From [Mycobacterium] crassicus (GTDB lineage Bacteria > Actinomycetota > Actinomycetes > Mycobacteriales > Mycobacteriaceae), in the NCBI RefSeq assembly GCF_020181615.1, contig NZ_CP084029.1:3516800-3580799 (forward strand): 64,000 nt of DNA, written 5' to 3'. The notes beneath the pieces are model-generated. The model searched no databases and was not told the origin of the DNA. It saw only the letters and a list, made by a program, of their open reading frames with translations. The translations under genes were made by a program, and so were the position numbers. The first letter of the stretch is position 1. Each line of letters starts with the position of its first letter. This document shows positions 5,056-25,982 of this stretch, piece after piece.

Positions 5056-5929
5056 CCCGTGCCAGAGAGTGCGCATGCCGGCCCATACCGGACCACGGGT
5101 CGTCGCGTTCAGCCATCCGCTTGCATACGTCACGCAGCGTGAACAGATCCGAGCGCATACCGCGCTCGTCGAGCTCATCCCACGCCAGTGGGGTGGCGAC
5201 CGGAGCTCCTGGACGGGCCCGTACCGAGTACGGCGCTACGGCCTTCTGCCCGTAGGCATTTCGCATGATGTCGACGTATACCCGGCCGCCGCGGCCACTC
5301 TTTCGGATCTCGCTCGTCCGGTGCGCCGGATCGTCGTCGACGACGGCTCGTGCGACGGCGCGGGCGAACTCGCGAGCGGTGTCGAAGTCGGCGTTTCCAC
5401 GCACCGGCGCGACGACGTGCAGGCCGCGTGAGCCCGTCGTCTGCACATACGGTGTCAGCTCCGACTCCCGGAGCACGTCGGCGACCGCTTTAGCGGTGTC
5501 GCGCAGGACCGCGAAGTCATCGCCCGCCGGATCCAGGTCGAACACCAACCGAATCGGGGTGTTCAGGTGCCGATTGCGCGACAACCACGAGTGCAGGGTT
5601 ACGCAGTCCTGATTGGCGGCCCACACCAGGGCTTCGCGCCGCCGTACCACCGGATGCACGACGGTGCCGGTACCGGACTTGCGGGCAACCTCGGCACGGT
5701 CCATCCAGTCAGGCAGCGACATGGCGAAGTTCTGCTGAATGAACCCCTCTTCCTCGATGCTGCCGGGGAACCGCGTCAGAGTGAGTGGACGACCATCCAG
5801 GTGCGGCACCATCACGGGCGCGATCTCGCGGTAGTAGTCGACGAGGTCACCCTTGGTGAGCGCGGCGTGGGTGGCCGACGCCGGGAACAGCACCCGATCC
5901 GGGTGGGTGATCGCAACGTCGGGCTTCAT
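5027..5929 (-). CDS. Stand-alone LigD-type polymerase/primase domain protein
   Basis: 300-residue archaeo-eukaryotic primase fold, the polymerase domain of LigD without ligase or nuclease domains. Visible: the N-terminal ITHPDRVLFP block, the metal-binding pair in VFDLDPAGDDF, and the TTGSRGLHVVAPV motif that binds the incoming nucleotide. Mycobacteria carry such separate PolDom proteins (PrimC/PolD type) that fill gaps and extend primers with NTPs, with links to repair and end joining. ATG at 5929. A possible SigF promoter with a long 17-bp spacer lies at 5939-5966. The 3' end overlaps the esterase gene. Confidence 0.87.
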   Translation of the reverse strand: MKPDVAITHPDRVLFPASATHAALTKGDLVDYYREIAPVMVPHLDGRPLTLTRFPGSIEEEGFIQQNFAMSLPDWMDRAEVARKSGTGTVVHPVVRRREALVWAANQDCVTLHSWLSRNRHLNTPIRLVFDLDPAGDDFAVLRDTAKAVADVLRESELTPYVQTTGSRGLHVVAPVRGNADFDTAREFARAVARAVVDDDPAHRTSEIRKSGRGGRVYVDIMRNAYGQKAVAPYSVRARPGAPVATPLAWDELDERGMRSDLFTLRDVCKRMAERDDPWSGMGRHAHSLARAMRRLGQDR

Positions 5930-5938: not shown

Positions 5939-5966
5939 GTACCCGCGGACCCCGGGCCGATAAACC
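5939..5966 (-). promoter_or_regulatory. Possible SigF-type promoter of the PolDom gene
   Basis: On the minus strand GGTTT (5966-5962), then 17 bp from GTTT to GGGTAC (5944-5939). The spacer is at the long limit. The -10 ends only about 10 bp from the ATG at 5929, giving a near-leaderless message. Confidence 0.35.
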
Positions 5967-9117: not shown

Positions 9118-9440
9118 GCGGAGCGAGTGGAGTGAGCGCAGCGAGTGACACGAACGACGCGAGCAGCCACGGCACTGTGAGCGACGACGTGACCACCGAG
9201 ACCGCCGCTGCGGAGCACGAGCCCGCAGCCGCCGTACCGCACATCCAGGTGCTCAAGGGCAACCCCACCGACGTGGAGGTCGCGGCCCTGGTCGCGGTGC
9301 TGGGGGCTGCCGGCGGCGGTGTCGCCGAAATCGGTACCCCGGATCGCAACATGTGGGGCCACCCGGTCGACAAGCTGCGGTTCCCGCTGTTCAGCTGGCA
9401 GCGGATCACGCTGCTTGAGCGCACTCATATGCGTCGGTGA
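9114..9440 (+). CDS. accE5: Acyl-CoA carboxylase epsilon subunit AccE5
   Basis: 108-residue small subunit that stabilises the AccA3-AccD5 complex. The conserved C-terminal half reads [20 protein letters not shown] then [16 protein letters not shown] and ends HMRR. The N-terminal 40 residues are low-complexity and encoded by a run of GAGCG/AGCGAG-like words, as in M. tuberculosis where this end is also repetitive and variable. The GTG start overlaps the accD5 stop. The stop codon TGA (9438-9440) is the first element of the 57-bp tandem repeat that follows. Confidence 0.93.
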
Positions 9441-9615
9441 CGAGGACGAGCGCCAGCGAGGCGGAGGATATCCGACGAATAGGGCATGCGTCGGTGACGA
9501 GGACGAGCGCCAGCGAGGCGGAGGATATCCGACGAATAGGGCATGCGTCGGTGACGAGGACGAGCGCCAGCGAGGCGGAGGATATCCGGCGAGTAGGGCA
9601 GCGTCGGTGACGAGG
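9431..9615 (+). repeat. 57-bp tandem repeat (MIRU-like) joining accE5 and maf
   Basis: Copies start at 9431, 9488, 9545 and 9601. The periods are 57, 57 and 56, and the fourth copy is cut to 15 bp. Each copy starts GCGTCGGTGACGAGG. In copy 1 the TGA inside this word ends accE5; in the last copy the GTG of the same word starts maf. Copies 1 and 2 look identical by eye; copy 3 differs near its end (GGCGAG for GACGAA) and lacks one base. The layout, with a GTGA stop/start overlap pulled apart by in-frame-length repeats, is that of mycobacterial interspersed repetitive units. Confidence 0.9.
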
Positions 9616-10248
9616 CTCGTTCTCGGTTCAGCCTCATCGGGCCGGCTGGCCGTACTGCGCGGCGCCGGGATCGAGCCACTGGTGGTGGTCTCCGGGGTCG
9701 ACGAGGACGCCATCATTGCCGAGTTGGGCCCGAACGCCCCCGCCGGGCAGGTAGTGGCCGCTCTGGCGTCCGCCAAGGCTGAGGCCGTCGCCGCAGACCT
9801 CGACGCCGATGTGGCGAGCGATTGCGTTGTGGTGGGCTGCGATTCGATGCTGGAGATCGACGGCCGACTGTGCGGGAAGCCCGACTCCGCCGATGCCGCT
9901 CGCGCCCAATGGAACTCGATGGGCGGGCGGGTCGGACTGCTGCACACCGGACATTGCGTGCTGCGACTGCGTTCTGGATCGATCGTTCGACGTGAGGCCC
10001 AAGTCGGTTCCACCACAGTATTTTTCGCGAAGCCGACCGCAGCGGACCTGAATGCCTACATCGGCGGCGGCGAGCCGCTGGGGGTCGCCGGGGCCTTCAC
10101 GATCGATGGTCGCGGCGGCTGGTTCGTCGACCGTATCGAGGGCGACCCGTCGAACGTGATCGGCTTGAGCCTGCCGCTGCTGCGTCGGTTGCTCGACGCC
10201 GCCGGCCTGTCGATCTCGCAGCTGTGGGCGTCCAGCCCGGAGGCCTGA
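9607..10248 (+). CDS. Maf family nucleotide pyrophosphatase
   Basis: 213 residues. Maf proteins hydrolyse non-canonical or methylated NTPs and affect septation. Seen: [14 protein letters not shown] at the N-terminus, CDSMLEIDG with the catalytic acid, and C-terminal [16 protein letters not shown] then [17 protein letters not shown] 9607 was chosen because it aligns with the family N-terminus (TRLVLGSAS) and lies at the end of the tandem repeat. The in-frame extension upstream would only translate the repeat as [13 protein letters not shown] units. Syntenic with Rv3282. Confidence 0.92.
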
Positions 10249-11682: not shown

Positions 11683-13538
<1,856 letters not shown>

Positions 13539-13593: not shown

Positions 13594-13869
13594 CGGGCGA
13601 TCTTCCGGTTCGCCCGCGGCGCGCGCTGGATCTGCCGGTGGTGGTGACCGCCGTGGGAGGCATTGGCGGCACAGTTGCGCCCGACGAACATCGATGTCCT
13701 TCGCACCGGACATCGCGACAGCGCCGCGACCGCGGGTTCGTCGACACCGAACCCGCCGGGAAATCGGGCGCCACCTTATTGGAACTGCGCGCGAAAACAG
13801 AGCACGTATTCCCCGATAGTGTTCGATAGGACGCCCGACGATACCTTCGCCTACCCTCAGGCATGTGAG
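13594..13869. other. Intergenic stretch without a supported gene
   Basis: About 275 bp after the accA3 terminator. Open frames exist on both strands, but none has a ribosome site, typical codon use or a recognisable domain. I see no RNA gene or repeat here. Confidence 0.5.
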
Positions 13870-14040
13870 ATGGCTTCTGCAACAACCGCGCCGGATCCGC
13901 GCCGGCCACTCCACGTCGAGCAGGCCGAAAACGTCGCGGTGCGCGAACGGGTGGTCCGCAACGCCATGGCCGCTGACCTGCTGCGCCGTAAGCCACACCC
14001 AAGGGTCCGGCATGAGGTTGGGCTGACGCCCGGCCGGTGA
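13870..14040 (+). CDS. Possible small basic protein, 56 aa
   Basis: A short frame from ATG 13870 gives MASATTAPDPRRPLHVEQAE and continues as a basic, arginine-rich peptide. TACCCT at 13853-13858 lies 11 bases upstream, so a short-leader transcript is possible, but there is no ribosome site and no family is recognised. It may be chance; the region has no counterpart in the M. tuberculosis order. Confidence 0.25.
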   Translation: MASATTAPDPRRPLHVEQAENVAVRERVVRNAMAADLLRRKPHPRVRHEVGLTPGR

Positions 14041-14257
14041 CGGGCTCGTCGCTGCTGACGATCTGAAACTTAAGGTTTCCCTAGGTTTTTCCCGAGTTTG
14101 TCACTTAACCCTTTACCAATCGGAAGCCGTGTCGGTAACGTCTGGATTCTCCGGTTGAGTTCACAGCCGCCATGAACGTCACCGCGTTTTAAGAGGTCGG
14201 AACAACTACGCTGACGTGATCCAACAGCACGATTCGTCGACTGATGGAGCCACCAGA
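14041..14257 (+). promoter_or_regulatory. Long leader of the first STAS gene, shared with its paralogue
   Basis: AT-richer region (around 14070-14150) followed by two words that recur before the second STAS gene at 19826. GGTTGAGTTCACAGCC is at 14153-14168, identical to 19689-19704. A block from GATCCAACAG to GACTGATGGAG is at about 14218-14248, nearly identical to 19790-19816. The GATGGAG near the end serves as ribosome site. No confident -10/-35 pair was found. Confidence 0.5.
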
Positions 14258-14695
14258 ATGACTACGAGCAAGATTTCGGACAACGCTTTCGCCACTCCCG
14301 CAACGGAAGCCGCGCACGCTTGGCAGAGCCACACCGCCAATTTCACCGTGCATTGGGGCAGGACCGGAGCGGTGATGGCCGCGAACGGAGAGGTCGACGC
14401 CGCCAACGCCGCCCCGTTCGCCGACTATGTCAAGCGCTGCGCTGATTGCTGCGAATGGCTGATCCTGGACTTGTCCGCGTTGACGTTCATTGGCACAGTG
14501 GGTTTTTCGGCCCTGCAGTCGATCAGCGCCCGGTGCTCCAGGGCGCGGATACAACTCATGGTGATACCCGGCCTGGCACTGACCACCGTACTGCGGATCT
14601 GCGATCCCGACTCACGCCTTCCGCTGGTGAGCTCGCTGGAAGCCGCCCTGGCCGCCGTGCAGAAGTCCGGCCGGCCGCTACACGCCGTGCGGTGA
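14258..14695 (+). CDS. STAS-domain anti-sigma factor antagonist (paralogue 1)
   Basis: 145 residues with a single STAS domain: GEVDAANAAPFADYV then WLILDLSALTFIGTVGF. Such proteins bind RsbW-type anti-sigma factors and free SigF-type sigma factors. At the phospho-acceptor site, where SpoIIAA/RsbV have DSSG or DSTG, this protein reads GTVG (Thr80-Val81), so only Thr80 could be phosphorylated. ATG 14258 rather than an upstream GTG is chosen because the matching leader of the paralogue at 19826 has a stop in that frame, and because GATGGAG lies just upstream. Part of the insertion between accA3 and sigF. Confidence 0.85.
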   Translation: MTTSKISDNAFATPATEAAHAWQSHTANFTVHWGRTGAVMAANGEVDAANAAPFADYVKRCADCCEWLILDLSALTFIGTVGFSALQSISARCSRARIQLMVIPGLALTTVLRICDPDSRLPLVSSLEAALAAVQKSGRPLHAVR

Positions 14696-14917
14696 GCTAG
14701 GCGGGCGCGGCTTCGCCGGCGGAGCATCGCGGAGTGCTCGGCAACTCGCCACGGCTGCTCCTGCCAATCGGCAACTGCTGTGCGGGCGCCTACGCGTGGG
14801 AGCGCGCCCGAGCCATCGCGTCACCGGAGCCATACCCTCCCTGAGCTCTCGACGCACGACAACAGGTTTCACTCGTCTGCGAAGTGGGAACTTGAACGGG
14901 TGCATAAGGAGGACGGG

Positions 14918-15184
14918 ATGAGAGCAGGCGGGTTTCTCGGGGTCGCCGTCCTGGCGTGGTTATCAGTCGGGGTCTTGGCCACGTGGCAGCGTGACTACTT
15001 CAGCGCGGGCCAAACCAATTGCGCCACCGCTGGAACGATCATACTGACGACGCTGGCCGGTCCGTTGAACTATTTCGGCGTGAATCCCATCGTCACGGAT
15101 TGCCATCTACCGGAAGCGCTTTCGCCACCATCTTCAGCCTCCGGCGGAGTTCATACCGCAATCCTCCTTGAAGGGAAGGTTTGA
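14918..15184 (+). CDS. Small membrane or exported protein, unknown function
   Basis: 88 residues beginning MRAGGFLGVAVLAWLSVGV, a single N-terminal hydrophobic segment that could be an anchor or an uncleaved signal. A short outer part with two cysteines (TNCATAG, VTDCHLP) follows. AAGGAGGA lies 6 bases before the ATG. A weak SigF-like pair (GTTT 14866-14869, 16 bp, GGGAAC) lies upstream but mismatches the -10 at two positions. No family recognised. Confidence 0.6.
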   Translation: MRAGGFLGVAVLAWLSVGVLATWQRDYFSAGQTNCATAGTIILTTLAGPLNYFGVNPIVTDCHLPEALSPPSSASGGVHTAILLEGKV

Positions 15185-15241
15185 CCCTCCTCCCGACGAA
15201 AGGCCTGCGGCGCGCTGACGTCGGATGACAGGAGCAATGCG

Positions 15242-16204
15242 ATGAGTGCCGCCGATGACGACGACCACGGCTCCTTCAGACACATCGCACTGTTCTATCG
15301 GTCATCCCAGGAGTATCTGGATTACCTGGTACCGTTCGTCGCCGACAGTGTTACCGCCGGCCTCCCCGTCTTGGTGGCGGTGCCGGAACCGAACCTGTCG
15401 CTGCTGCGCGCGGCCATCGGCGATCTCGCGGGATCAGCCGAGCCGGTAATCCTGGCGGACATGAGCACGGTGGGACGCAACCCCAGCCACATCCTCGGCG
15501 GTGTGTTGGGTTCCTTCGCCGATCAACACCCGTCGGGCCCGGTCCGGATGATCGACGAACCGGTCTGGAACGGTCGCTCGAAGGCGGAGTACGCGGCATG
15601 CGTACAACACGAGGCCCTGCTCAACCGGGCATTCGACGGCCGGGACATCACTGTGCAGTGCCCCTACGACGCAACGCATCTGGACTCCGACAGCCTCGCC
15701 GAAGCCGAGATCACCCATCCGCGCCTGTGCGATGCCGGACGCGCGGACAGAACCAGCCCTGGTTTCGCCCCGGACAGCGCATGGGCGCGCTACAACAAGC
15801 CGCTGCCCAGCAGTACGACCGCGGCGAGCTATACGCTGCACGGACTCACCGACCTCGCCGGTGCCCGGGCATTCGCGGCCAGGTACATCCGCTGGTTCGG
15901 CTTCTCCCCCAGCGGTATCGCCGATATGCAACTGATAGTCAATGAGCTGACATCCAACGGTCTGCAGCACGGGCGGGGCCCGTGCACGCTGCTGCTGTGG
16001 GAGGCGAACGGGCAGTTGATCTGCCAGGTACGCGACTCCGGTCACCTGACAGACCCGATGGCCGGTCACCGGTCGATCATCCGCGACGGCGCTCACGGAC
16101 GCGGCCTGTTCGTGGTCAACGCGACCGCGGACCTGGTACGCGTTCACGCCGCGGCGACCGGGACAACGGTCCAGGCAAACCTTCGGATTCGGAGGTCGGC
16201 GTAA
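15242..16204 (+). CDS. MEDS sensor domain + HATPase anti-sigma regulatory protein (RsbA-like)
   Basis: 320 residues. Residues about 10-170 form a MEDS/DcmR-type sensory domain (HIALFYRSSQEYLDYLVPFV at its start). Residues about 190-318 form a GHKL ATPase with N-box VNELTSNGLQHG, G1 motif VRDSG and G2 motif HGRGLFVVNATAD, as in RsbW-type anti-sigma kinases. No His phosphorylation domain is present, so it should bind or phosphorylate a STAS partner rather than act as a two-component kinase. AGGAG lies 7 bases before the ATG. Its neighbour 0.5 kb upstream is a STAS antagonist, which suggests a partner-switching pair. Confidence 0.85.
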   Translation: MSAADDDDHGSFRHIALFYRSSQEYLDYLVPFVADSVTAGLPVLVAVPEPNLSLLRAAIGDLAGSAEPVILADMSTVGRNPSHILGGVLGSFADQHPSGPVRMIDEPVWNGRSKAEYAACVQHEALLNRAFDGRDITVQCPYDATHLDSDSLAEAEITHPRLCDAGRADRTSPGFAPDSAWARYNKPLPSSTTAASYTLHGLTDLAGARAFAARYIRWFGFSPSGIADMQLIVNELTSNGLQHGRGPCTLLLWEANGQLICQVRDSGHLTDPMAGHRSIIRDGAHGRGLFVVNATADLVRVHAAATGTTVQANLRIRRSA

Positions 16205-16260
16205 TGGCAGATAACCGGCCTGCAGAGGCCGGTTCAGTCCCGGCCGAAGGAGTAGCGTGA
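16204..16260 (+). CDS. Possible 18-codon linker ORF between MEDS gene and methyltransferase
   Basis: ATG 16204 overlaps the preceding TAA (TAATG) and reads MADNRPAEAGSVPAEGVA, ending with a TGA one base before the next gene's ATG. Its message contains a small hairpin (CCGGCCT/AGGCCGG, 16215-16232) and GAAGGAG, the ribosome site of the next gene. It may act only in translational coupling. Confidence 0.25.
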   Translation: MADNRPAEAGSVPAEGVA

Positions 16261-16261
16261 G

Positions 16262-17140
16262 ATGTCGATGCCTGAGTTCGAACCCAAGTACGCCGAACTG
16301 CAGTCGATCTACGACATCTCGAATGAGTTCTTTGAGCTGTTCCTAGGTCCGACTATGGGCTATACCTGCGGGTTTTACGAGCAGCCGGACACCACCCGCG
16401 ACGCGGCGCAGAACGCCAAATTCGACCTCGCACTGGGAAAACTCGGGTTGCAGCCGGGCATGACACTGCTCGATATCGGCTGCGGCTGGGGAGGTGGTAT
16501 GCGGCGCGCCCTCGAAGTATTCGACGTCAACGTCGTCGGACTGACGCTCAGTGAGCGGCAACGCGAATACGCAACCGCCAAGCTGGCAGATGTCCCCACC
16601 CGGCGAACCGTGCAGGTACGCCTGCAGGGTTGGGAAGAATTCGACGAGCCGGTGGATCGCATCGTGTGCATCGGCGCCTTCGAACATTTCGGTCACAACC
16701 GCTACCGCGCCTTCTTCGACATGGCCTACCGCGTCCTGCCGGCCGACGGGGCAATGCTGCTGCACACCATCACCGCGATCACCCAGGATGACGCCCAGCG
16801 ATTAGGCCTCCCGCTGACCATGAGCATGGCCCGGTTCAACAGGTTTGTCATGACCGAGGTCTTTCCCGGCGGTCAACTGCCCACCATGGCAATGGTCGCC
16901 GACCGCGCGATCGAAGCCGGCTTCATCGTCACCCGTGCCCACGAGATCGGAACCAACTACGTACGTACTCTGCAGGATTGGGCCGCCGCGCTGGCCACCA
17001 ACAAAGACCGGGCAATCGCCGCGCAGTCCCAGGAGGTATACGACCGCTACGACAAGTACCTCAACGGGTGCGTGAAACTGTTCCGCGACGGCTACGCCAG
17101 CGTGCATCAGTACACCCTGGAGAAGGCGCGTCGCCGGTAG
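16262..17140 (+). CDS. Cyclopropane-fatty-acid / mycolic acid cyclopropane synthase-family methyltransferase
   Basis: 292 residues of the SAM-dependent CmaA/MmaA/PcaA family. Seen: substrate-entry segment YDISNEFFELFLGPTMGYTCG, SAM motif LLDIGCGWGGG (69-79), VVGLTLSERQ, and GAFEHFG with the conserved acid-containing loop. The family methylates double bonds of mycolic or other unsaturated acyl chains, making cyclopropanes or methoxy precursors. It is co-directional with and closely follows the MEDS regulator; GAAGGAG lies 9 bases upstream. Which acyl chain it modifies cannot be told. Placement in a stress-regulator block suggests envelope remodelling. Confidence 0.87.
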   Translation: MSMPEFEPKYAELQSIYDISNEFFELFLGPTMGYTCGFYEQPDTTRDAAQNAKFDLALGKLGLQPGMTLLDIGCGWGGGMRRALEVFDVNVVGLTLSERQREYATAKLADVPTRRTVQVRLQGWEEFDEPVDRIVCIGAFEHFGHNRYRAFFDMAYRVLPADGAMLLHTITAITQDDAQRLGLPLTMSMARFNRFVMTEVFPGGQLPTMAMVADRAIEAGFIVTRAHEIGTNYVRTLQDWAAALATNKDRAIAAQSQEVYDRYDKYLNGCVKLFRDGYASVHQYTLEKARRR

Positions 17141-17181
17141 CCGGCACCGTCAGCGATGTCGACGCGTCCGGCCGGCCGGAC

Positions 17182-17439
17182 TCAGTTCCCGGAGTCCGGG
17201 GTACTCGTGGACGTGCTTCCCTCGACCGTCGTGGTGGTGGAGGTGGTCATCGGCACGCTGGTGGACGAGGTGGCGACGGTCGTCGTGACCGCCTCGGGGT
17301 CGGGGTCCGCGTTCGCCGGACCAACGAAGCCCGGGGCACCTGAAGACCCCGACAGGACGGCGAACGCTGCCGCCGTCAATGCTGCGATCGCGGCCGTTGA
17401 GCCGAACCGCTTACCCACAATCTGAATTCGCGCGCCCAT
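17182..17439 (-). CDS. Small secreted Thr/Ser-rich protein
   Basis: 85 residues. Basic start (MGARIQIVGKRFG), a hydrophobic Ala-rich segment to about residue 30, and a likely signal-peptidase site near PANADP. The exported rest is rich in Thr and Ser (TTTVATSSTSVPMTTSTTTT), possibly a glycosylation target or wall spacer. ATG 17439 has GGAGG shortly upstream. A well-matched SigF promoter precedes it at 17507-17531. Confidence 0.7.
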   Translation of the reverse strand: MGARIQIVGKRFGSTAAIAALTAAAFAVLSGSSGAPGFVGPANADPDPEAVTTTVATSSTSVPMTTSTTTTVEGSTSTSTPDSGN

Positions 17440-17812
17440 GGTGTCCTCCGGGTTGATCGTTGACGCTGATCGTTGACATCGCGCCTTTGCGGGCGCGTGA
17501 AGGTGTTTACCCCCGAGGTTCTGGCATAAACATCGCAACGGATACCCGGCCACAATATTTTTAACCTCGCGGTGGTGGCTCGCATCTAGTCCTATCAGCG
17601 ACAGCCCATTTTGCTGGAACCATTCACCCCACGAGTCACAGAACGGCTCCCGGGATCGTCGTCGAATTCCATCGCACGAAGTGCGGCGAGATTGTGGGCA
17701 CTGAACAGCCTCGCGCCTTCCGCAGGCGACGGCTCTGACTCCCGTCCACGGCTCGCCTGTCGGCGCCCGGAATTTGGCTCATACTGTTTGAGTACGAGAA
17801 GGCGGGTGCTCG
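17440..17812. other. Divergent intergenic region
   Basis: Holds the SigF-type promoter of the minus-strand secreted gene (17507-17531) and, near its right end, the likely promoter of the PAS-ANTAR gene (CATACT around 17780-17785 with a short leader). Between about 17540 and 17770 nothing recognisable was seen. Confidence 0.45.
17507..17531 (-). promoter_or_regulatory. SigF-type promoter of the small secreted protein
   Basis: On the minus strand GTTT (17531-17528), 15 bp, GGGTAA (17512-17507). The -35 is exact and the -10 differs from GGGTAT only in the last base. The start codon lies 68 bp downstream. Confidence 0.6.
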
Positions 17813-18481
17813 GTGGCCGGGGATGTCAACGCTCAGTTCGCGACGCCGTTGGGCGACGATTCCGAGGAGAACAACGACCTCGACCTGGTGATAGGAAACG
17901 GCGAACCCCAGCGGGTGGGCCGTTTTCGCTACTGGCTCGGTGAGCGGCGCTGGGAGTGGTCGGACACGGTTGCCCGGATGCACGGCTACGAGCCGGGAAC
18001 GGTACAACCCACCAGCGAGCTGCTCCTGCAACACAAGCACCCGGAGGATCGCCCGCAAGTCGCCGAAGTGCTGGAGCGAGTCGCCCAAGGCGGGCGATTC
18101 AGCAGCCGGCACCGGATCATCGACACCTCCGGTCAGATCCGCTGGGTCATCGTGGTGGGCGATCGGATGTTCGACGACACCGGAACGGTGAGCGGCACGG
18201 CGGGCTTCTACATCGACGTCACCGACGTGTTGCAGTCCGACGTAACCGCCGCGGTCTCCGAGGTAGCCGAGTCACGGGCGGTGATCGAACAGGCCAAGGG
18301 CGTGTTGATGGCCGCCTACGGCATCCCCGCCGACCGGGCATTCGATGTTTTGGTCTGGCGCTCGCAGGAGACCAACGTCAAGGTGCGGACCTTAGCGGCC
18401 CGTTTCCTCGCGGCGCTGAGCGGTGGTTTCAGCCCCGACGCGGTGTCGCTGGTCGACCACACGCTGCTCACCCTGACCTGA
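17813..18481 (+). CDS. PAS-ANTAR transcription antitermination regulator
   Basis: 222 residues. A PAS_3-type sensor fold (about 30-140; RYWLGERRWEWSDTVARMHG, then HPEDRPQVAEVLERV) is followed by an ANTAR RNA-binding domain (about 150-205; SRAVIEQAKGVLMAAYGIPA and a final LAARFLAAL helix). ANTAR proteins bind paired stem-loops in nascent RNA and prevent termination. The PAS domain would sense a ligand or redox cue. GTG start with purine-rich GAGAAGGCGGG upstream. It sits between regulators of the SigF type; its RNA target was not found. Confidence 0.85.
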   Translation: MAGDVNAQFATPLGDDSEENNDLDLVIGNGEPQRVGRFRYWLGERRWEWSDTVARMHGYEPGTVQPTSELLLQHKHPEDRPQVAEVLERVAQGGRFSSRHRIIDTSGQIRWVIVVGDRMFDDTGTVSGTAGFYIDVTDVLQSDVTAAVSEVAESRAVIEQAKGVLMAAYGIPADRAFDVLVWRSQETNVKVRTLAARFLAALSGGFSPDAVSLVDHTLLTLT

Positions 18482-18551
18482 ACCGCGCCGGCCCACGCGC
18501 GGGGGCAGTGACGGGAAGCCGGGCGCTCCGACGGGAATCCGCGCGTCGTGC

Positions 18552-19541
18552 TCACGGCCCCGGCGCACACTGCGCCTGGATGACCTGCTCCCACTCTTGC
18601 AGGAATCGGTCCAGCCCGAAATGCTCCGTGGCGTAGTCTCGGGCGGCCGTGCCGACCACCTCGGCCAGATAGCGGTCGGCGACCAACCCGCTCAGCGCGG
18701 CCCGAAGGGTGTCTAGGTCGGCACTGACCACGCCCGCCTCCGGAGGCACCACCAGCGGCGCCATGGTCGAGGCCACCGCAACCACCGGCATGCCGAGGAA
18801 CATGGCTTCCAGTAACGGCACGTCCAGCGACGTCCAACGCGCGGTGTGCAGGTAGACCCGACGATGTGCCAATTCCTTCATCAGCAGGTCTGTCGGCAGA
18901 CTGCCGTGCCCGATGACCCCTGGCCGGCGGTGTAACGGATCGTTGAGGCCTTCGGCGCCGATCCCCCAGACGTCGACCGTCGCCGCGTCCCCGAACTGGC
19001 CCAACAGGTCGGCGCCCACCGTGCGCCCCCGGCGCAATGGTTCGTCGATCACCGCACCCGCGGCCGCGACGTCGCCGGTGTACAGGTGCCCGGGGTCGGC
19101 GACCCCGTGGGTGATGACCATCGTCGGTGCGCGGCCGTTGTCCCACATCAGCCGGTTGTAGTCGGTGACATGGATCAACGGGATATCGTCGCGTTCCCCG
19201 ATGGGATGCGGGCTCTCCACCACGAAGGGGCGCGGCGTGTTGTGCTCGACGTATACCGCCGGCACGTCGATTCCCGGCCGGCGGCCCGACAGCCGCGCAG
19301 TCAGCTCCAGTTCGTGCGGACGCTGCAGCACTACCAGGTCGATGTCTTGATCGCGCAGCTCGTCCATCCGAATCTCCTGCGCTGTCGGCCAATCACGACC
19401 GCACAGTCCGCGGCCGTCAGGATCGTGCGGAGTGTCGACCGGAATGAGGTAGCGGTGGCCGCCGACAACGAACGAGTCCATCCAGGAACCGTGCACGTGC
19501 CAGATGAGCACCGAACGACGGTTGGTCTGCGAAAACGCCAT
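18552..19541 (-). CDS. Glycosyltransferase (GT4-like)
   Basis: 329 residues with a GT-B layout. The start SVLIWHVHGSWMDSFVVGGHRY resembles the donor-independent N-terminal fold, and AVYVEHNTPRPF follows. The C-terminal domain has the acceptor/donor EX7E-like region TSLDVPLLEAMFLGMPVVAV and the end of a GT1/GT4 fold. ATG 19541 (MAFSQTNRR) is chosen over an upstream TTG. It transfers a sugar to an unknown acceptor, in the cytoplasm judging by the lack of a signal. It is divergent from the second STAS gene. Confidence 0.8.
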   Translation of the reverse strand: MAFSQTNRRSVLIWHVHGSWMDSFVVGGHRYLIPVDTPHDPDGRGLCGRDWPTAQEIRMDELRDQDIDLVVLQRPHELELTARLSGRRPGIDVPAVYVEHNTPRPFVVESPHPIGERDDIPLIHVTDYNRLMWDNGRAPTMVITHGVADPGHLYTGDVAAAGAVIDEPLRRGRTVGADLLGQFGDAATVDVWGIGAEGLNDPLHRRPGVIGHGSLPTDLLMKELAHRRVYLHTARWTSLDVPLLEAMFLGMPVVAVASTMAPLVVPPEAGVVSADLDTLRAALSGLVADRYLAEVVGTAARDYATEHFGLDRFLQEWEQVIQAQCAPGP

Positions 19542-19688
19542 ACCCGCTTGTTGCCCGCACGGAGGCCGCCTAAACGTCGAAAAAGTTGGCGACCTGGTTT
19601 GCTGCAAGGAAATTCGGATTGGGCTCTGCCATCAGCCCCGTGACCGAATCGTTGCACGCCTCGGAGAATCGGCGTAGGTTCGGTGGCA

Positions 19689-19820
19689 GGTTGAGTTCAC
19701 AGCCACCCGGAAGACGCGTCAGCCACGCAAACCAGGGAGGCCCACTCCCGAGCTTGTCATCCGTGAAGGTGAAATCGCATCGACGCGATCCAACAGTACG
19801 AATTTCGACTGATGGAGTAA
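19689..19820 (+). promoter_or_regulatory. Leader of the second STAS gene, matching the first
   Basis: Contains GGTTGAGTTCACAGCC (19689-19704) and the GATCCAACAG...GACTGATGGAG block (about 19790-19816), both shared with the region before 14258. The stretch between them is about 35 bp longer here and not conserved. Confidence 0.5.
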
Positions 19821-19825
19821 TCGAA

Positions 19826-20260
19826 ATGCCCGCATTGAGAGCGACCGGGTCGCTGTTTCCGGCCCCGCGAATAGATACCGCACCGCCGACCGATAGCTGG
19901 AAGAGCCACACCGCCCGTTCCGTCACCCGATGGGGACGTTCGGGCGCGGTGATCAGCGTGAACGGCGAACTCGACGCCTCCAACTCCGGTCAACTGGCGG
20001 ACCACGTGCAGCGCTCCTCCAGGTTTTGCGAGTGGCTGATCCTTGACCTGCACGCTCTGGAATTTATTGGTACTACTGGCTTTTCGGCGCTCAAGATGAT
20101 CACCGGCAGGTGCGCCGACACCAATGTCTACTGCACGATGGTGCCCGGCGTTGCGGTAACGCGCCTGTTGCGGATCTGCGACCCCGCAGGCGCGCTGCCC
20201 ACCACGGCGTCGGTGACAGACGCGCTGGCCGGCGTGCAGAGCTTCCGGCCTGCCCTCTGA
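19826..20260 (+). CDS. STAS-domain anti-sigma factor antagonist (paralogue 2)
   Basis: 144 residues, clearly paralogous to the protein at 14258: SVNGELDASNSGQLADHVQ, CEWLILDLHALEFIGTTGF, RLLRICDP. At the phospho-site it reads GTTG (Thr83-Thr84) where the first copy has GTVG. The ATG at 19826 is supported by the conserved GATGGAG leader; the frame upstream is closed by TAA. It ends 6 bp before the convergent cutinase gene. Predicted to bind an RsbW-type kinase, either RsbW at 23801 or the MEDS protein at 15242. Confidence 0.85.
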   Translation: MPALRATGSLFPAPRIDTAPPTDSWKSHTARSVTRWGRSGAVISVNGELDASNSGQLADHVQRSSRFCEWLILDLHALEFIGTTGFSALKMITGRCADTNVYCTMVPGVAVTRLLRICDPAGALPTTASVTDALAGVQSFRPAL

Positions 20261-20266
20261 ACGCGC

Positions 20267-20998
20267 TCATCTGCCAAAGGGAGCCCCAGTCACAGCAGCG
20301 TTTTCGTGGCCCCGTAGTCGCCCGGCGGCGAAGTCGGCCGCCTGGTCCACCATCGTGCCGTCCGCGGCATAACTGTCGTGTGCGGCGAAGTTGACCCCGT
20401 CGGAGCAGACCGCATCCTCCGGGGCGCACAACTGCATGGTCTTGGCCTGGTACAACGGCCCGATCACGATCTTCGGTTCGTTGAGGAAGTTCATCGCCCG
20501 CTCGTTCGGCATGGCGAACAACACCACCGCGGCAACATGATCGGCGACGTTCGGATCCAACGGCTTGGGCACGGTCGCCGGGTCGACGTCATCGGGCACC
20601 TGGGCCGAGGTGACGAAACCCATCACCGCAGCACCCTGGGAATAACCACCCAGCACCATCTTGGTTTTAGGGCACTCGGTCGCCCGCGAGACGACGTGCG
20701 CGCCCGCGTCCCGAATACCGTCGACACCGGTGTCCCACTGGTCGGTGGCCGGATAGTTCACCGCGTAGACAGCTGGCGGAACATCGTTCACACGTGCACC
20801 CAGCGCCTTGACGAACGCCTGCCCGGTCGGCCCGATTCCGGGCGGTTCACCGGTGCCGCGCGCGAACACCACTTCGGTGTCGGGGCACGACGCCTCCGGC
20901 GCGGCCGAGACTTTAGGGGGGAAAAGGATTGCGGCGCTGACACCGGGTGCCACGATCAGTGCAGGGACAAGGGAGCAGACGAGGTCACGCGCGGGCAT
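20267..20998 (-). CDS. Secreted cutinase-family serine esterase
   Basis: 243 residues with an N-terminal signal (MPARDLVCSLVPALIVAPG) and a mature cutinase fold: CPDTEVVFARGTGEPPGIG, nucleophile motif GGYSQGAAV, acid in LCAPEDAVC and histidine in AAHDSYAADG. Four cysteines in the family positions would form two disulfides. Mycobacterial cutinase-like proteins act as lipases or phospholipases outside the cell. An in-frame GTG at 21016 is an alternative start. A weak SigF-like pair (GGTTT, 16 bp, GGGCAC) overlaps that GTG. Confidence 0.87.
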   Translation of the reverse strand: MPARDLVCSLVPALIVAPGVSAAILFPPKVSAAPEASCPDTEVVFARGTGEPPGIGPTGQAFVKALGARVNDVPPAVYAVNYPATDQWDTGVDGIRDAGAHVVSRATECPKTKMVLGGYSQGAAVMGFVTSAQVPDDVDPATVPKPLDPNVADHVAAVVLFAMPNERAMNFLNEPKIVIGPLYQAKTMQLCAPEDAVCSDGVNFAAHDSYAADGTMVDQAADFAAGRLRGHENAAVTGAPFGR

Positions 20999-21137
20999 GT
21001 CGGTGTAGGTGCCCACATCGGCCTCGGCTCAAACCCATTATTTCAATTGATTTTTTGTGATTATTTGTCAGCGCCGGTCTATGGACAACGGCCACCCACG
21101 TTCGAAAAGTACTGACCGGCAGGCCGAGTCGGCGGGA

Positions 21138-21293
21138 TCAATACCAGTGGCGTCGGCCGCCGACCGGGCGCCCGACCAGCCCCAGCAGCCAGAACACCGC
21201 ACCGATCACCAGCAAGGCGACCCCGATCGCCCACAGGAGATAGACCCCGAACACCAGCCCCAGGATCAACAGGACCAGACCGAGCCCGATCAT
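21138..21293 (-). CDS. Small hydrophobic protein, DUF6131-like, 51 aa
   Basis: Two hydrophobic helices (MIGLGLVLLILGLVFGVYLL and AIGVALLVIGAVFWLLG) are followed by a short basic tail ending GGRRHWY. This matches the small DUF6131 proteins of mycobacteria in length and tail. Probably a membrane peptide of unknown role. ATG 21293; no strong ribosome site. A SigF-type promoter lies 45-70 bp upstream, which supports it as a real expressed gene. Confidence 0.7.
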   Translation of the reverse strand: MIGLGLVLLILGLVFGVYLLWAIGVALLVIGAVFWLLGLVGRPVGGRRHWY

Positions 21294-21337
21294 GACGGGT
21301 CCAGGGTCTTGAGTGTCGTCACTGTCATGGTGGGGGG

Positions 21338-21364
21338 TTACCCATGCCAGGATGCCGCGAAACC
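21338..21364 (-). promoter_or_regulatory. SigF-type promoter of the DUF6131-like gene
   Basis: On the minus strand GGTTT (21364-21360), 16 bp, GGGTAA (21343-21338), then about 45 bp to the ATG. Both boxes fit the SigF consensus with a single mismatch in the last base of the -10. Confidence 0.6.
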
Positions 21365-21389
21365 CGGGCAGCGGGTATCCCGCTCAGCG

Positions 21390-21734
21390 TCAGAAGGCGA
21401 CGAACAGTGCCAACAGGTCGATCGCCAACAGTGCCCAGCCCGCCAGTGGGACAAGGAATCCGCGCGGTAGTCGGGCTGTGAAGAACGAGGCCAGGACTGT
21501 CAGTCCGGCGATGACCGGGGCGCCGTAGTACAGCACGCCGAACAGGACTCCCCCCGGTCCGAGGCCAGGGCATTCGACGGTACTGCAGGCGGCGGCGCTC
21601 ATCACCGCCCCCACCGCAAAGGTCATCACCAGGGCGGCGCCGACGATGGTCAGCACGGCCAGAACCCAATTGATCCAGAACCGGGCAGGATGGGCGCCGG
21701 TCCCACGCGGTATCGGCATCGGCTCTCCGGTCAC
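21390..21734 (-). CDS. Small multi-pass membrane protein, unknown function
   Basis: 114 residues with three or four predicted membrane segments (WVLAVLTIVGAALVMTFAVG, GGVLFGVLYYGAPVIAGLTV, GFLVPLAGWALLAIDLLALF) and one outer or inner loop with two cysteines (ACSTVECPG). GTG 21734 is preceded by GGAGGTGG. No named family recognised. Confidence 0.7.
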   Translation of the reverse strand: MTGEPMPIPRGTGAHPARFWINWVLAVLTIVGAALVMTFAVGAVMSAAACSTVECPGLGPGGVLFGVLYYGAPVIAGLTVLASFFTARLPRGFLVPLAGWALLAIDLLALFVAF

Positions 21735-21798
21735 AGCGCCACCTCCCCGGCTGCCTATGCGTGCACCATCGTCACGTATCGGTGGTTTGAGCCATCAG

Positions 21799-22188
21799 TC
21801 AATACTTGTCGCAGGTCTTCGAGATCGGGCCAATCAGATTGACGAACTCCGCGGCCTCCGGGACGCCCTGGGCCTGTTGGAGCATCTCTTCGCGCTGCTG
21901 CGGCGGCGCTGCGAGGAAATTCTGCAGGAAGGACTGCGCCATCGGTGCGGCGTTGAACTCTGCGGCCACCTTCGGTGACTGCGCGTTCATGGCGGCCACC
22001 ACCTGCGAGTAGTTGCATGTGGTGCTGATCGCCGGGTTCTGGGACCACAGGCCCGGCTGGCCCGGCTGAACAGGCTGACTCGGCTGGGCAGGTTGCGGTT
22101 CGGCGCTCGCCAGCCCGGTGCCGGCCGCCAACGCCAGTGCGAATCCGCCGGCGAAGGTGGCGATTCTGGTCAAAGATGTTGTGCTCAT
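21799..22188 (-). CDS. Secreted hemophore-related protein (Rv1174c/TB8.4-like), copy 1
   Basis: 129 residues. A signal peptide ends near GLASAEP, followed by a Pro/Gln linker made of PAQPSQPVQPGQPG. The conserved domain begins TTCNYSQVVAAMNAQSP, contains FLQNFLAAPP and ends TCDKY. Two cysteines bracket the domain. This is the secreted helical family that includes Rv1174c and the haem-carrier Rv0203; haem binding here is inferred only from family. A related copy lies at 25469-25801 on the other side of sigF. Divergent from a cutinase. Confidence 0.82.
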   Translation of the reverse strand: MSTTSLTRIATFAGGFALALAAGTGLASAEPQPAQPSQPVQPGQPGLWSQNPAISTTCNYSQVVAAMNAQSPKVAAEFNAAPMAQSFLQNFLAAPPQQREEMLQQAQGVPEAAEFVNLIGPISKTCDKY

Positions 22189-22283
22189 TGGTGTAGCTAC
22201 CCTTCAGTCGCTGCCGGACCGGATCGGTGACGGCACCGCAGTAGGCTTGCCGTTTTCGCCGGGGCTAAACCACGGTTTGCCGT

Positions 22284-22985
22284 GTGGCCTCAGTGGGTAT
22301 CGGACGAAATGCTGTGATTGCACGGATACTCACCGCAGCGGGCCTGTGCGGCTCGATGCTGCTGCCCTGGCCCGCCGGCGATGCGGTCGCGTCTAGCTGC
22401 CCCGATATCGAGGTGATCTTCGCTCGCGGCACCGCTGAGCCGCCCGGCGTCGGGTGGATCGGCCAACAGTTCATCGACGCACTGAGGTGGCGCGCCGCCG
22501 GCCGGCCCATGGACGTCTACCCGGTCGACTTCCCGTCCGTGCCCGACTTCGCTCCCACCACTTCCGGGGTGGCCGACGCGAGCAGCCATATCCGGGACAC
22601 GGCAGCAGCCTGCCCCGCGACTTCGATGGTGCTCGGCGGGTACTCGCGGGGAGCCGCCCTCATCGGCTACGCCACCGAGCCCGCGGCTGCGGGGTTCGGA
22701 GTTCCCTTGCCGCCCGAAGTGGCCGGCCACGTCGCCGCGGTTGTGCTGCTGGGCAAACCGTCCGACGCCTACTTGGGCTCGATCGGCGCACCGCCGGTGA
22801 AACTCGGCCCCGGATACGCGGTCAGGAGCATCGACCTGTGCGCGCCCGGCGACCCGATCTGTTCGGCGGGCGCCGACGGCGCCGCGCACGCCGCCTACGC
22901 CGCGAACGGTATGACCACGCAGGCGGCGGACTTCGCCATCGCACAGCTAAGGCCGCCAGAAACGCTTTCAGATCAGCCGATTTGA
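22284..22985 (+). CDS. Cutinase-family protein with altered oxyanion motif
   Basis: 233 residues with an N-terminal hydrophobic signal and a cutinase fold: CPDIEVIFARGTAEPPGVG, VYPVDFPS, acid in LCAPGDPIC, histidine in GAAHAAYAANG. The nucleophile motif reads GGYSRGAAL instead of GYSQG. The family glutamine after the serine helps form the oxyanion hole, so the Arg replacement could change or weaken catalysis. GTG 22284 was taken; GTG at 22314 is possible. Ends 30 bp before the convergent sigF stop. Confidence 0.83.
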   Translation: MASVGIGRNAVIARILTAAGLCGSMLLPWPAGDAVASSCPDIEVIFARGTAEPPGVGWIGQQFIDALRWRAAGRPMDVYPVDFPSVPDFAPTTSGVADASSHIRDTAAACPATSMVLGGYSRGAALIGYATEPAAAGFGVPLPPEVAGHVAAVVLLGKPSDAYLGSIGAPPVKLGPGYAVRSIDLCAPGDPICSAGADGAAHAAYAANGMTTQAADFAIAQLRPPETLSDQPI

Positions 22986-23015
22986 TGGCGATCTGCGCCG
23001 TCGCGCGGACCGGCT

Positions 23016-23804
23016 CTACTGAAGCTGTTCCCGCATCCGGGCCAGCGACTTGGCCAGCAAGCGTGATACGTGCATCTGCGAGATACCGACCCGCTCAGCG
23101 ATCTGCGTCTGTGTCATCGACTCGAAGAACCGCAGCACCAGCACGGTGCGTTCCCGCTCCGGAAGTGCGTTGAGCAAGGGCCGCAACGCCTCTCGATCAT
23201 CAATCCGGACCAGGCCGGCGTCGATATCACCCAGGGTGTCGGCGATCGACCGGGCGTCGTCCTCGTCGGACTTGCCGCCGCTGTCGATCGACAACGTGTT
23301 GTAGGAGCTGCCCGCAACCAATCCTTCGACCACCTCGTCGCGGCTGATCTCCAACTCCTGAGCCAGCTCTGAGGCCGTGGGGGCGCGGCCGAGACGTTGT
23401 GACAGTTCGGCCGTCGCCACCCCGAGCCTCAGGTGCAGCTCTTTTAGCCGGCGGGGCACCTTGACCGACCAGCTGTTGTCGCGGAAGTGCCGCCGGACTT
23501 CACCCATGATGGTCGGCACCGCGAATGAGACGAAATCCGAACCGGTCTCGACGTCGAATCGGGTGACGGCGTTGACCAGCCCGACCCGCGCGACCTGGAC
23601 CAGATCGTCGCGCAGCTCGCCACGACCCTCGAAACGACGTGCGATGTGGTCGGCCAGCGGCAGGCACCGCTCCACGATCTTGTCCTTGCGGTTGCGGTAA
23701 TCAGCCGATTCGGAATCGTATTGCGCGAGTTCGCGAAACAGGTCGCCGACATCGGAGTACTCCGAGCCGGACTGTGAGCCACCTGGGGCGGCGCGCCGGG
23801 TCAC
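23016..23804 (-). CDS. sigF: RNA polymerase sigma factor SigF
   Basis: 262 residues, group 3 stress/sporulation-type sigma factor. Region 2 contains HIARRFEGRGELRDDLVQVA and the promoter-melting stretch DFVSFAVPTIMGEVRRHFRD; region 3 has WSVKVPRRLKELHLRL; region 4 ends in the helix-turn-helix TQTQIAERVGISQMHVSRLL. GTG 23804 was chosen because it overlaps the rsbW stop by 4 bp and gives the M. tuberculosis length; a longer frame runs back through rsbW. Released by anti-anti-sigma action, it should read the GTTT/GGGTA promoters listed in this window. Confidence 0.97.
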   Translation of the reverse strand: MTRRAAPGGSQSGSEYSDVGDLFRELAQYDSESADYRNRKDKIVERCLPLADHIARRFEGRGELRDDLVQVARVGLVNAVTRFDVETGSDFVSFAVPTIMGEVRRHFRDNSWSVKVPRRLKELHLRLGVATAELSQRLGRAPTASELAQELEISRDEVVEGLVAGSSYNTLSIDSGGKSDEDDARSIADTLGDIDAGLVRIDDREALRPLLNALPERERTVLVLRFFESMTQTQIAERVGISQMHVSRLLAKSLARMREQLQ

Positions 23805-24238
23805 CGCCCGGCTTCCGCCCGTCGGGTTGTCAGGGTCACTCCGAATACCGCGACCGGGCTTCCGCTTTCGTGACCATCGCGGAACGTCCGCACATCGTCC
23901 ACCAGCGACGTGAGCACGTGCCAACTGAAACTTCCCGGCGACAGCACTTCGGCGCCGTCGCAGGCGGCCGAGGCCTCGATCGTCACATCGTCGTCATGCG
24001 GATCGATAACCACTGTCAACGTCGCATCCGGTGTCGCGCAGCGGATCAGCAGGGTACACAGCTCATCGATCGCCAGTCGCAGGTCGGCTACTTTGTCGAC
24101 GTCGAGGTCCTCGAATGTGGCGATCGCACCGACCAACATGCGTACCACCGCCAGACTCTCGAGTCGCGGGGTCACCCGCAGTTCGACGGCCCGTTCGCTG
24201 CACGGCCGTGGGATCCGCGCGCTCTGAATGTCGGTCAT
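23801..24238 (-). CDS. rsbW: Anti-sigma factor RsbW (UsfX)
   Basis: 145 residues of the GHKL anti-sigma family that holds SigF inactive. The core reads LAVVRMLVGAIATFEDLDVD, then LRLAIDELCTLLIRCA at the N-box position, and SFSWHVLTSLVDDVRTF near the end. ATG 24238 follows a GGGAGG ribosome site; a longer in-frame reading is not conserved. Translationally coupled to sigF (GTGA). Its promoter at 24398-24423 is SigF-type, so the pair is autoregulated with a long leader of about 150 nt. Confidence 0.93.
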   Translation of the reverse strand: MTDIQSARIPRPCSERAVELRVTPRLESLAVVRMLVGAIATFEDLDVDKVADLRLAIDELCTLLIRCATPDATLTVVIDPHDDDVTIEASAACDGAEVLSPGSFSWHVLTSLVDDVRTFRDGHESGSPVAVFGVTLTTRRAEAGR

Positions 24239-24397
24239 TGAGCCTCCCGGCGAAATCGGACCGAGACCACTGCTGCTGCTGAGCGCCAATCGACTGGTCA
24301 CGAACGTCACCTGCCCGCACCGTCGCAGGTGCCGCTGTGACTCGCAATGGTCAACAGCGCATGACCGGCTGCCCGGAGATCAGTCATGGGGGTGTCT

Positions 24398-24423
24398 ATA
24401 CCCGGTCACCAGCGCATTCAACC
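24398..24423 (-). promoter_or_regulatory. SigF autoregulatory promoter of rsbW-sigF
   Basis: On the minus strand GGTTG (24423-24419), 15 bp, GGGTAT (24403-24398). The -10 is perfect and the -35 differs from GGTTT in one base. SigF drives rsbW-sigF in M. tuberculosis, so position and sequence agree. Confidence 0.75.
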
Positions 24424-25468: not shown

Positions 25469-25801
25469 TCAGAATTTGTCGCAGGTGCTAGCCAGCGGGC
25501 CGAAAAGCGCGACGTACTGGGCGGCGTCCGGCGAGTCCTGGGCCTCATCGACCATCTGTTGTCGCTGTGGCGGCGGCGCGGCGAGGAAATTCTGCAACCA
25601 GGACTGCGCGGCCGGCGTCGCGTTGAACTGTGCGGCAATCCCCGGTGACTGCTCGTTCATGGCAGCCACGACCTGCGAGTAACTGCACGTGGTGTTGACG
25701 GCCGGATCGGTGGCCGGATCGGCGGACGCCACTGCCAGGCCGGCAGTCAGCGCCAACGCGGCGCCCCCGCTCGCGGCGGCCAATCTCGTAAGGCCAGACA
25801 T
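25469..25801 (-). CDS. Secreted hemophore-related protein (Rv1174c/TB8.4-like), copy 2
   Basis: 110 residues. The signal peptide ends near VASADP, and the conserved domain TTCSYSQVVAAMNEQSP, WLQNFLAAPPPQRQQM, ending STCDKF, follows directly. It lacks the Pro/Gln linker of copy 1 at 21799 and is closer to Rv1174c. ATG 25801 with AGGAGAGGTGG upstream. The lysine aminotransferase (lat) block found between Rv3289c and lhr in M. tuberculosis is absent; this gene stands there instead. Confidence 0.82.
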   Translation of the reverse strand: MSGLTRLAAASGGAALALTAGLAVASADPATDPAVNTTCSYSQVVAAMNEQSPGIAAQFNATPAAQSWLQNFLAAPPPQRQQMVDEAQDSPDAAQYVALFGPLASTCDKF

Positions 25802-25982
25802 CACTCGGCCACCTCTCCTTTTTCGGGCGCCGGACACTCACCGGCGGGCTCGCCGAGGGGTTCCCGTTTACCAGGGCAGCCAAACTCCGCTCCCCGCAGC
25901 CGCTCCTGGCAGATACCCGCCAACGTGGAACACAAAACCGCAGTACCCGGCATCGCGGCCACACAGTTGGCACCATGGCTGG

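Follow-up and report, generated by a model that had tools for sequence, protein, structure and literature searches.

Introduction

Partner switching around the sigma factor SigF has been described in Mycobacterium smegmatis and Mycobacterium tuberculosis, where the system comprises SigF, RsbW1/UsfX, RsfA, RsfB, RsbW2 and RsbW3, with STAS-type antagonists, a kinase-type ATPase and the promoter consensus GTTT-N15-17-GGGTA (available portions of PMC7390352, PMC4694148, PMC7693655 and PMC10950880). Here we analyse the interval between accA3 and sigF in a 64,000-nucleotide stretch of [Mycobacterium] crassicus (contig NZ_CP084029.1, positions 3,516,800 to 3,580,799; hereafter the window, its genome being designated G000). 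The locus resembles the described system in having relatives of SigF and RsbW, STAS-type candidate antagonists, a kinase-type ATPase and the same consensus. It differs in that the output island itself contains two STAS genes together with a MEDS-HATPase gene of RsbA type, and in that threonine replaces serine at the position aligned with the phosphorylation site of RsfB, to which the island STAS proteins are only distantly related.

A second point of comparison is the group of SigF-dependent genes MSMEG_1766 to MSMEG_1804 near sigF of M. smegmatis, which includes ChaB and UsfY (PMC4694148, in the portion available). Both loci bring many SigF-dependent genes (there) or candidate ones (here) close to sigF. 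By locus-tag numbers, however, the M. smegmatis genes lie on the rsbW side of sigF, whereas the island described here lies between accA3 and sigF. Three genomes from outside the clade defined below (G011, G065 and G102) carry relatives of the GT4, glycosyltransferase (GT) and PAS-ANTAR genes with SigF sites on the rsbW side, within about 26 kb. For the MEDS-HATPase gene, we take the closest system to be RsbA of Streptomyces coelicolor, an anti-sigma-B factor; the two share the MEDS-HATPase architecture and the window protein matches the NCBIfam model RsbA_anti_sig, but the window gene stands beside sigF and rsbW, a pair in which an anti-sigma factor is already included.

SigF, RsbW, antagonists and the regulon are already known. 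The novelty appears to lie in where the genes sit, between accA3 and sigF with STAS and RsbA genes among them, in the concentration of SigF sites there and in the graded series of island sizes; no description of such an island was found among the titles and abstract openings surveyed. We propose, with a probability of roughly 72%, that the interval is a clade-specific SigF-regulon island, reduced in the window genome.

Results

The interval between accA3 and sigF is enlarged across a mycobacterial clade

The clade, a group of environmental mycobacteria, was defined as the 21 of 396 genus genomes nearest by SigF (SigF match E <= 1e-148). We call it Mycolicibacter, as the rsbA genes of the contig-collection locus L001 (Mycolicibacter sp. 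MYC340) and of clade genome G150 share coordinates. Gap sizes were sought in 160 genomes, 148 sampled and 12 further clade members, and both accA3 and sigF were located in 140 (135 on a single contig, five split over contigs). The genomes set aside comprised eight sampled ones in which sigF was not matched at E 1e-60, four with the place of sigF unlisted (G003, G050, G088 and G092), six with sigF and no accA3 match, and two with a partial accA3 (G015 and G062).

In the window, accA3 (11742..13538, +; 96-98% identity in the 12 further clade genomes) and sigF (23016..23924, -) bound a gap of 9,483 bp. For the 118 genomes outside the clade the gap has a median of 1,584.5 bp, and only three of them have a larger gap than the window (G052, G014 and G072). 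The M. tuberculosis order given in the original prediction, with sigF directly after accA3, thus fits the genus norm. Clade gaps were measurable in 17 genomes, the other four being split over contigs, and span 9.5-66 kb: the window has the smallest, followed by gaps of 14-15 kb (G371, G078 and G150), 25-33 kb (G292, G350, G181, G174, G226, G073 and G016) and 41-53 kb (G130, G309, G321, G022 and G101), up to 66,265 bp in G069. The original prediction had described about 9 kb of genes inserted between accA3 and sigF. Its gene content holds, but the direction of change was wrong: because the window gap is the smallest of its clade, the word "inserted" misleads, and the block represents the minimum measured for a gap that is enlarged throughout the clade, as opposed to a new insertion of 9 kb.

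A shared gene order with variable cargo

The domain families named for this block in the original prediction were all found by Pfam or NCBIfam searches, the glycosyltransferase only weakly. Reading from accA3, the window holds STAS1, a candidate anti-sigma-factor antagonist and putative input (14216..14695, +; Pfam STAS 41.5 bits, cut-off 22.6); sm1, a small protein with a hydrophobic N-terminus (14780..15184, +; likelier start 14900-14918); and rsbA, a candidate MEDS-HATPase anti-sigma factor or switch kinase and a second putative input (15242..16204, +; RsbA_anti_sig 321 bits, cut-off 210). These are followed by a cyclopropane mycolic acid synthase-type methyltransferase (CMAS; 16262..17140, +; NCBIfam mycolic_MTase 417 bits, cut-off 390), the small exported protein sm2 (17182..17553, -; N-terminus signal-peptide-like by eye, likelier start 17439) and PAS-ANTAR, a candidate sensor/antiterminator (17813..18481, +; Pfam ANTAR 61 bits, PAS_3 56 bits). 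Next come the GT4-like GT (18552..19607, -; likelier start 19541), a weak assignment with a single Pfam model above cut-off (30.1 vs 27), and STAS2, the second candidate antagonist (19754..20260, +, the longest reading frame beginning at 19586; Pfam STAS 33.6 bits, cut-off 22.6). The remainder consists of the cutinase-family enzyme cut1 (20267..21016, -; Pfam Cutinase 145 bits, likelier start 20998), the 51-amino-acid reading frame orf18 (21138..21293, -), the small membrane protein mem (21390..21734, -), the hemophore-related exported protein hemo (21799..22188, -; NCBIfam MTB_hemophore 61 bits, cut-off 32) and a second cutinase-family enzyme, cut2 (22284..22985, +; Pfam Cutinase 130 bits). 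The small open reading frames (ORFs) of the block had no Pfam match at E 0.001. Judging by promoter positions, by reading frame and by N-termini that resemble signal peptides, the nominal starts of cut1, cut2, GT, sm1 and sm2 look too far upstream; for cut2 the likelier start is GTG 22314, 14 nt after the -10 box.

Gene order and presence across the clade were assessed by tblastn and by clustering of called genes. The order STAS1, sm1, RsbA, PAS-ANTAR, GT, STAS2, cut1, mem, hemo, cut2 is constant wherever these genes are present. STAS1, PAS-ANTAR, RsbW and SigF were found in all 21 genomes, cut2 in 20, STAS2 and mem in 19 each (mem within the gap), RsbA in 18, cut1 in 17, the orf18 cluster in 16, GT in 14 and CMAS in seven. 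The original prediction had named absence or scattering of the block in close relatives as evidence against itself; the block instead keeps one order across the clade. In G086, RsbA, CMAS and PAS-ANTAR lie on a contig joined to neither accA3 nor sigF, and some absences coincide with contig breaks such as those of this genome; in G292 the RsbA match is in two pieces. Our home-made gene caller overlooked ChaB in G150 (found by a separate search) and sm1 and sm2 of the window, and absences of small families are therefore less certain.

Relatives add further colinear families: KatE catalase, HSP20, ChaB, hemerythrin, DJ-1/PfpI, uracil-DNA glycosylase, GAF-ANTAR, MEDS-STAS, a third STAS protein (STAS3), a haem-oxygenase-like protein, a TPP enzyme, DAO-Rieske, GMC, ADH, GH15, an Orn/Lys/Arg decarboxylase and others (30 of the 60 widespread cargo families were covered by the domain scan). 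G072, which lies outside the clade and has a 39-kb gap, has PAS-ANTAR, GT, STAS2 and many cargo families in common with it, suggesting that the gap was enlarged before the clade arose.

Rare cargo was scanned through 37 representatives of rare clusters (25 of 53 matching families shown), and three defence-gene families were matched among them. Across the rare representatives as a whole, the scan also gave PfkB, SIS, GT9 and carbamoyltransferase domains. In G376, four rare families (c87, c89, c90 and c91) are adjacent at L067:13089-19023 and occur in three clade genomes and in G072; our guess is that this is a glycan cluster.

SigF consensus sites precede many candidate output genes

The published SigF consensus is GTTT-N(15-17)-GGGTA (PMC7390352, with variants in PMC4694148 and PMC7693655, as far as the available text of each goes). 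In the window it occurs exactly six times against 0.23 expected, a number reached in none of 100 shuffles, and all six sites stand before a plausible same-strand gene start. Three of them lie in the block. The site for sm2 (17508..17531, -) has a one-mismatch neighbour, GGTT-N15-GGGTA (17543-17566, -), and an exact minus-strand site also precedes sm2 in G150. The site for orf18 (21339..21363, -) is exact in five of 17 copies and has one mismatch in two more, and that for cut2 (22275..22299, +) is found in most genomes. One-mismatch sites precede sm1 (GTTT-N16-GGGAA, 14866..14890, +), GT (GTTT-N15-GGGCA, 19552..19575, -, 10 nt before the inferred start) and cut1 (GTTT-N16-GGGCA, 21010..21034, -); in cluster c27, whose members are taken by position to be the sm1 orthologues, all 14 have one. 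By the presence of an upstream consensus, cut2, sm2 and orf18 would belong to the SigF regulon with exact sites and sm1, GT and cut1 with one mismatch. No SigF consensus was found in the window upstream of STAS1, STAS2, RsbA, CMAS, PAS-ANTAR, mem or hemo.

The same distribution was examined family by family in 906 gene copies from the 74 families present in at least six clade genomes, over -160 to +45 nt around the called start, with reversed and mononucleotide-shuffled stretches as controls. As best sites, 204 copies have an exact and 119 a one-mismatch match, compared with 0 and 31 in the reversed stretches and 0.8 and 22.6 in the shuffles. Every copy has an exact site in cut2 (20/20), TPP (16/16), DAO-Rieske (15/15), c31 (13/13), hemerythrin (11/11) and c71 (7/7). 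With one mismatch allowed, sites precede ChaB in 19/19 copies, cut1 in 16/17, GT in 13/14 (10 exact and three with one mismatch) and KatE in 11/15. Seven regulator families, STAS1 (21 copies), PAS-ANTAR (21), STAS2 (19), RsbA (18), GAF-ANTAR (17), STAS3 (13) and MEDS-STAS (9), together gave no exact site in 118 copies and two with one mismatch. Among scrambled motifs, TTTG..GGGTA gave 97 matches and TGTT..GGGTA 53, which we think reflects overlap with real sites; the other seven gave 1-11.

Whole-genome maps of exact sites, covering seven of the 21 clade genomes, give the share that lies in the gap: 3 of 29 in G000 (53-fold enrichment, binomial P 2.6e-5), 5/39 in G150, 8/28 in G371, 13/34 in G022 (37-fold), 15/37 in G309 (39-fold), 15/40 in G069 and 14/34 in G073. 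The reversed pattern occurs in these genomes 14, 12, 14, 23, 10, 17 and 8 times, respectively. In the two genomes outside the clade whose sites were listed in full, a single exact site lies less than 100 kb from sigF (1/49 in G085 and 1/58 in G060). Small local groups occur elsewhere, such as seven sites around the ChaB gene of G060 (3378690-3394871) and five in G085 at 5603769-5608936; "scattered elsewhere" is therefore too simple a description of non-clade mycobacteria. In ten non-clade genomes, the 40 kb on the rsbW side of sigF hold 0-5 sites each.

Of the exact clade sites, 217 are followed by a reading frame, and at 86 of these an ATG or GTG stands 9-11 nt after the -10 box, an uncontrolled count. 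That the -10 box often lies so close to the start suggests leaderless mRNA, and positions of 8-11 occur as well in the M. smegmatis table (PMC4694148, in the portion available).

A one-mismatch site, GGTTG-N15-GGGTA (24399..24423, -), also lies upstream of rsbW-sigF. It has a one-mismatch counterpart in nine of 21 orthologues against 1.4 expected from shuffles, and SigF autoregulation through it is possible.

Exact sites also stand before window genes outside the block. The site at 5940-5965 (-) is 10 nt upstream of an ORF (5027-5929, -) that resembles a LigD polymerase by eye; it may be a DNA-repair gene that SigF controls from outside the island through a leaderless transcript. A second hemophore-like gene, lying on the rsbW side of sigF (25469-25837, -), has an exact site at 25914-25938 (-) and an additional one-mismatch site closer in; comparable exact sites occur on the rsbW side in G150 (3780748), G022 (3695586) and G069 (3630029). 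The site at 31612-31636 (-) precedes by 45 nt a gene (31228-31566, -) whose product looks by eye like a small lipoprotein rich in Thr, and sites like it are found on this side of sigF in G150 (3786373), G022 (3701426) and G309 (971959). A separate feature is a short tandem peptide repeat, three copies by eye, at the start (9319-9680) of ORF 9319-10248; it is possibly a repeat expansion before a Maf-like gene.

Candidate switch proteins

The cognate anti-sigma factor RsbW/UsfX (23801..24310, -) overlaps the start of sigF. Its ATPase domain falls just short of the Pfam HATPase cut-off (26.6 vs 27.4), and among solved structures its best match is to the anti-sigma-F factor RsbW (8ih8_C, E 5.6e-51), from a PDB entry that contains both RsfB and RsbW. 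At E <= 0.1 the solved relatives of STAS1 are RsfB (8ih8_A, E 4e-6) and an anti-sigma factor antagonist (4qtp). The motif FLGSVGL of RsfB aligns with FIGTVGF of STAS1, and STAS2 has FIGTTGF; the threonine is invariant in 21 STAS1 rows and present in at least 75% of 27 STAS2-cluster rows. RsfB is inactivated by phosphorylation of Ser61 (PMC10950880, in the portion available), which we assume to be the aligned serine at chain position 63, presuming a short tag in the solved chain. With a STAS fold and a phosphorylatable threonine at the position of RsfB Ser61, STAS1 and STAS2 qualify as candidate antagonists. Two cysteines are invariant in the 21 STAS1 orthologues, 22 residues apart; since Cys73 and Cys109 of RsfA are 36 apart (same source), an RsfA-type pair is not claimed.

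The RsbA_anti_sig match of the rsbA product spans residues 12-314 and Pfam MEDS and HATPase_c_2 are found too, which places the protein in the RsbA anti-sigma family. A solved-structure search with it gave one match (E 0.061), which was not useful. A scan of the contig collection returned seven RsbA loci, one of them (L001) from the clade. Among the 148 sampled genomes, RsbA-like genes were found in 43 from outside the clade, at least 240 kb from sigF in the single-contig ones compared.

Probable reduction of the window block

In a tree of ten concatenated locus proteins, G000 joins G150 and then G292 and G350, whose gaps measure 15-25 kb; the branch of G072 is long and the root uncertain. ChaB, found in six of the seven genomes searched, including within the G150 gap, was found nowhere in G000 by whole-genome search. 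The island-type KatE was likewise not found in G000, where only a 40%-identical catalase lies elsewhere in the genome. By clustering, an MTS-type methylase family is present in 19 of the 21 clade genomes and absent only from G000 and G150. Because of the tree grouping, the absence of ChaB and the presence of KatE only as a distant catalase, reduction is the likelier history. The window genome has the most reduced form measured, probably as a result of deletions. It retains the inputs and the envelope outputs without most enzymatic stress outputs.

In G150, a stretch about 10-17 kb outside accA3 (C1:3742204-3749428) carries four exact SigF sites that resemble those of the island in relatives, together with a sequence 93% identical to the first part of the island KatE (residues 2-283). 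It is perhaps a displaced island piece.

Discussion

Synteny, gene content, promoter enrichment and their conservation are all observed directly in the sequences and point to an island of the SigF regulon, from which we infer the protein-protein and expression steps of a possible switch. Under stress, unphosphorylated STAS1 and STAS2, with threonine at the position of the RsfB serine, would bind RsbW, and RsbW held in this way would free SigF; RsbA could act as a modulator of STAS1 and STAS2 or as a second anti-sigma factor. Freed SigF would then transcribe the surrounding stress and envelope genes, in the window mostly envelope-facing (cutinases, GT and small exported proteins), with catalase, ChaB, hemerythrin, DJ-1 and others added in relatives. 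STAS1, STAS2, RsbA and PAS-ANTAR have no SigF sites and are therefore probably made independently of SigF. Since STAS1 occurs throughout the clade but no RsbA was found in three of its 21 genomes, RsbA cannot be an obligatory partner. The original prediction had proposed a local input-and-output module for SigF. Its output half is well supported by conserved SigF-consensus sites before the cutinases, GT and the small exported proteins; the cyclopropane synthase has no such site and the mixed hemophore cluster few, all with one mismatch. The input half, in which STAS and RsbA proteins would act on RsbW, draws on domains, synteny and the conserved threonine.

Several observations weigh against this reading. 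Only three block sites in the window are exact, those of sm1, GT and cut1 carrying one mismatch, and the one-mismatch scan gave nine matches in the block and 11 in the other 51.6 kb searched. Just 16 of the 74 families have an exact site in at least half of their copies. SigF control is not indicated for CMAS (0/7 copies with a site) or mem (1/20), and the mixed hemophore cluster has two one-mismatch sites in 20 copies. At the starts of HSP20, GMC, SDR, GH15, MFS and other cargo genes no site was found, although some of these genes may lie in operons. A wider-reach scan placed an exact site 195 nt upstream of STAS3 in G174. As the reversed pattern matches 8-23 times per genome, many of the sites outside the gap may be chance matches. 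On the input side, STAS1 and STAS2 fall below the cut-off of TIGR00377 ant_ant_sig (33.5 and 30.7 vs 53.45 bits), the relationship of STAS1 to RsfB is a distant one, and RsbA is not universal in the clade.

The 7-fold size range within the clade, the 81 clusters confined to at most five clade genomes and an integrase core domain in one of the 37 rare-cluster representatives, among the matches listed, would suit a general integration or rearrangement hotspot filled with unrelated cargo, to which the proximity of sigF is incidental. We consider this improbable, since the shared genes keep one order across the clade, SigF sites are conserved family by family, no tRNA was found in the window, and no transposase or integrase domain was found in the window block or in the 30 of 60 widespread cargo families scanned. 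A mobile genomic island was likewise set aside, no tRNA having been found in the window and no integrase or transposase in the block or in those 30 families, with the one integrase-core match in relatives' rare cargo; repeats were not searched for. That the window block was recently gained by G000 and that the larger gaps of its relatives arose separately is very improbable: the window gap is the smallest in the clade and the root of the locus tree is uncertain, but its genes are the shared colinear skeleton, it groups with genomes whose gaps are larger, and both the methylase family missing only from G000 and G150 and the ChaB present in the G150 gap but found nowhere in G000 argue against it. 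Recent insertion is thus disfavoured by synteny, tree grouping and gap sizes.

A likelier alternative holds that only the outputs belong to SigF and that the STAS, RsbA and ANTAR genes form a separate partner-switching pathway for another target at the same site. The lack of exact SigF sites before the regulator families fits it, as do the RsbA-like genes far from sigF outside the clade and the naming of RsbA as an anti-sigma family of its own. We nevertheless regard it as unlikely, given that STAS1 is kept in every clade genome and STAS2 in nearly all (19 of 21), that a STAS gene of the STAS2 cluster stands beside sigF in seven of the nine short non-clade gaps fetched, and that the nearest solved relative of STAS1 is RsfB.

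We return to the clade-specific SigF-regulon island. A stronger form of it, to which we give slightly less than even odds, is that the SigF regulon has been consolidated in cis in the Mycolicibacter clade: a large part of the genuine SigF promoters of a genome would lie in one colinear island at sigF that also houses dedicated antagonists and a switch of RsbA type, and sensor, switch, sigma factor and outputs would in this way be inherited together and pared by deletion as a unit. The regulon of a sigma factor is usually scattered over the chromosome; in this clade a stretch beside sigF, no more than 1-2% of the genome, contains a large share of the exact SigF sites. The natural variants from 66 kb down to 9.5 kb make it testable which stress outputs are dispensable and which STAS and RsbA proteins feed SigF, and the window genome, whose set is the smallest of those measured, offers a minimal version made by nature. 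The predicted control of secreted cutinases by SigF, if true, would link stress signalling to the envelope.

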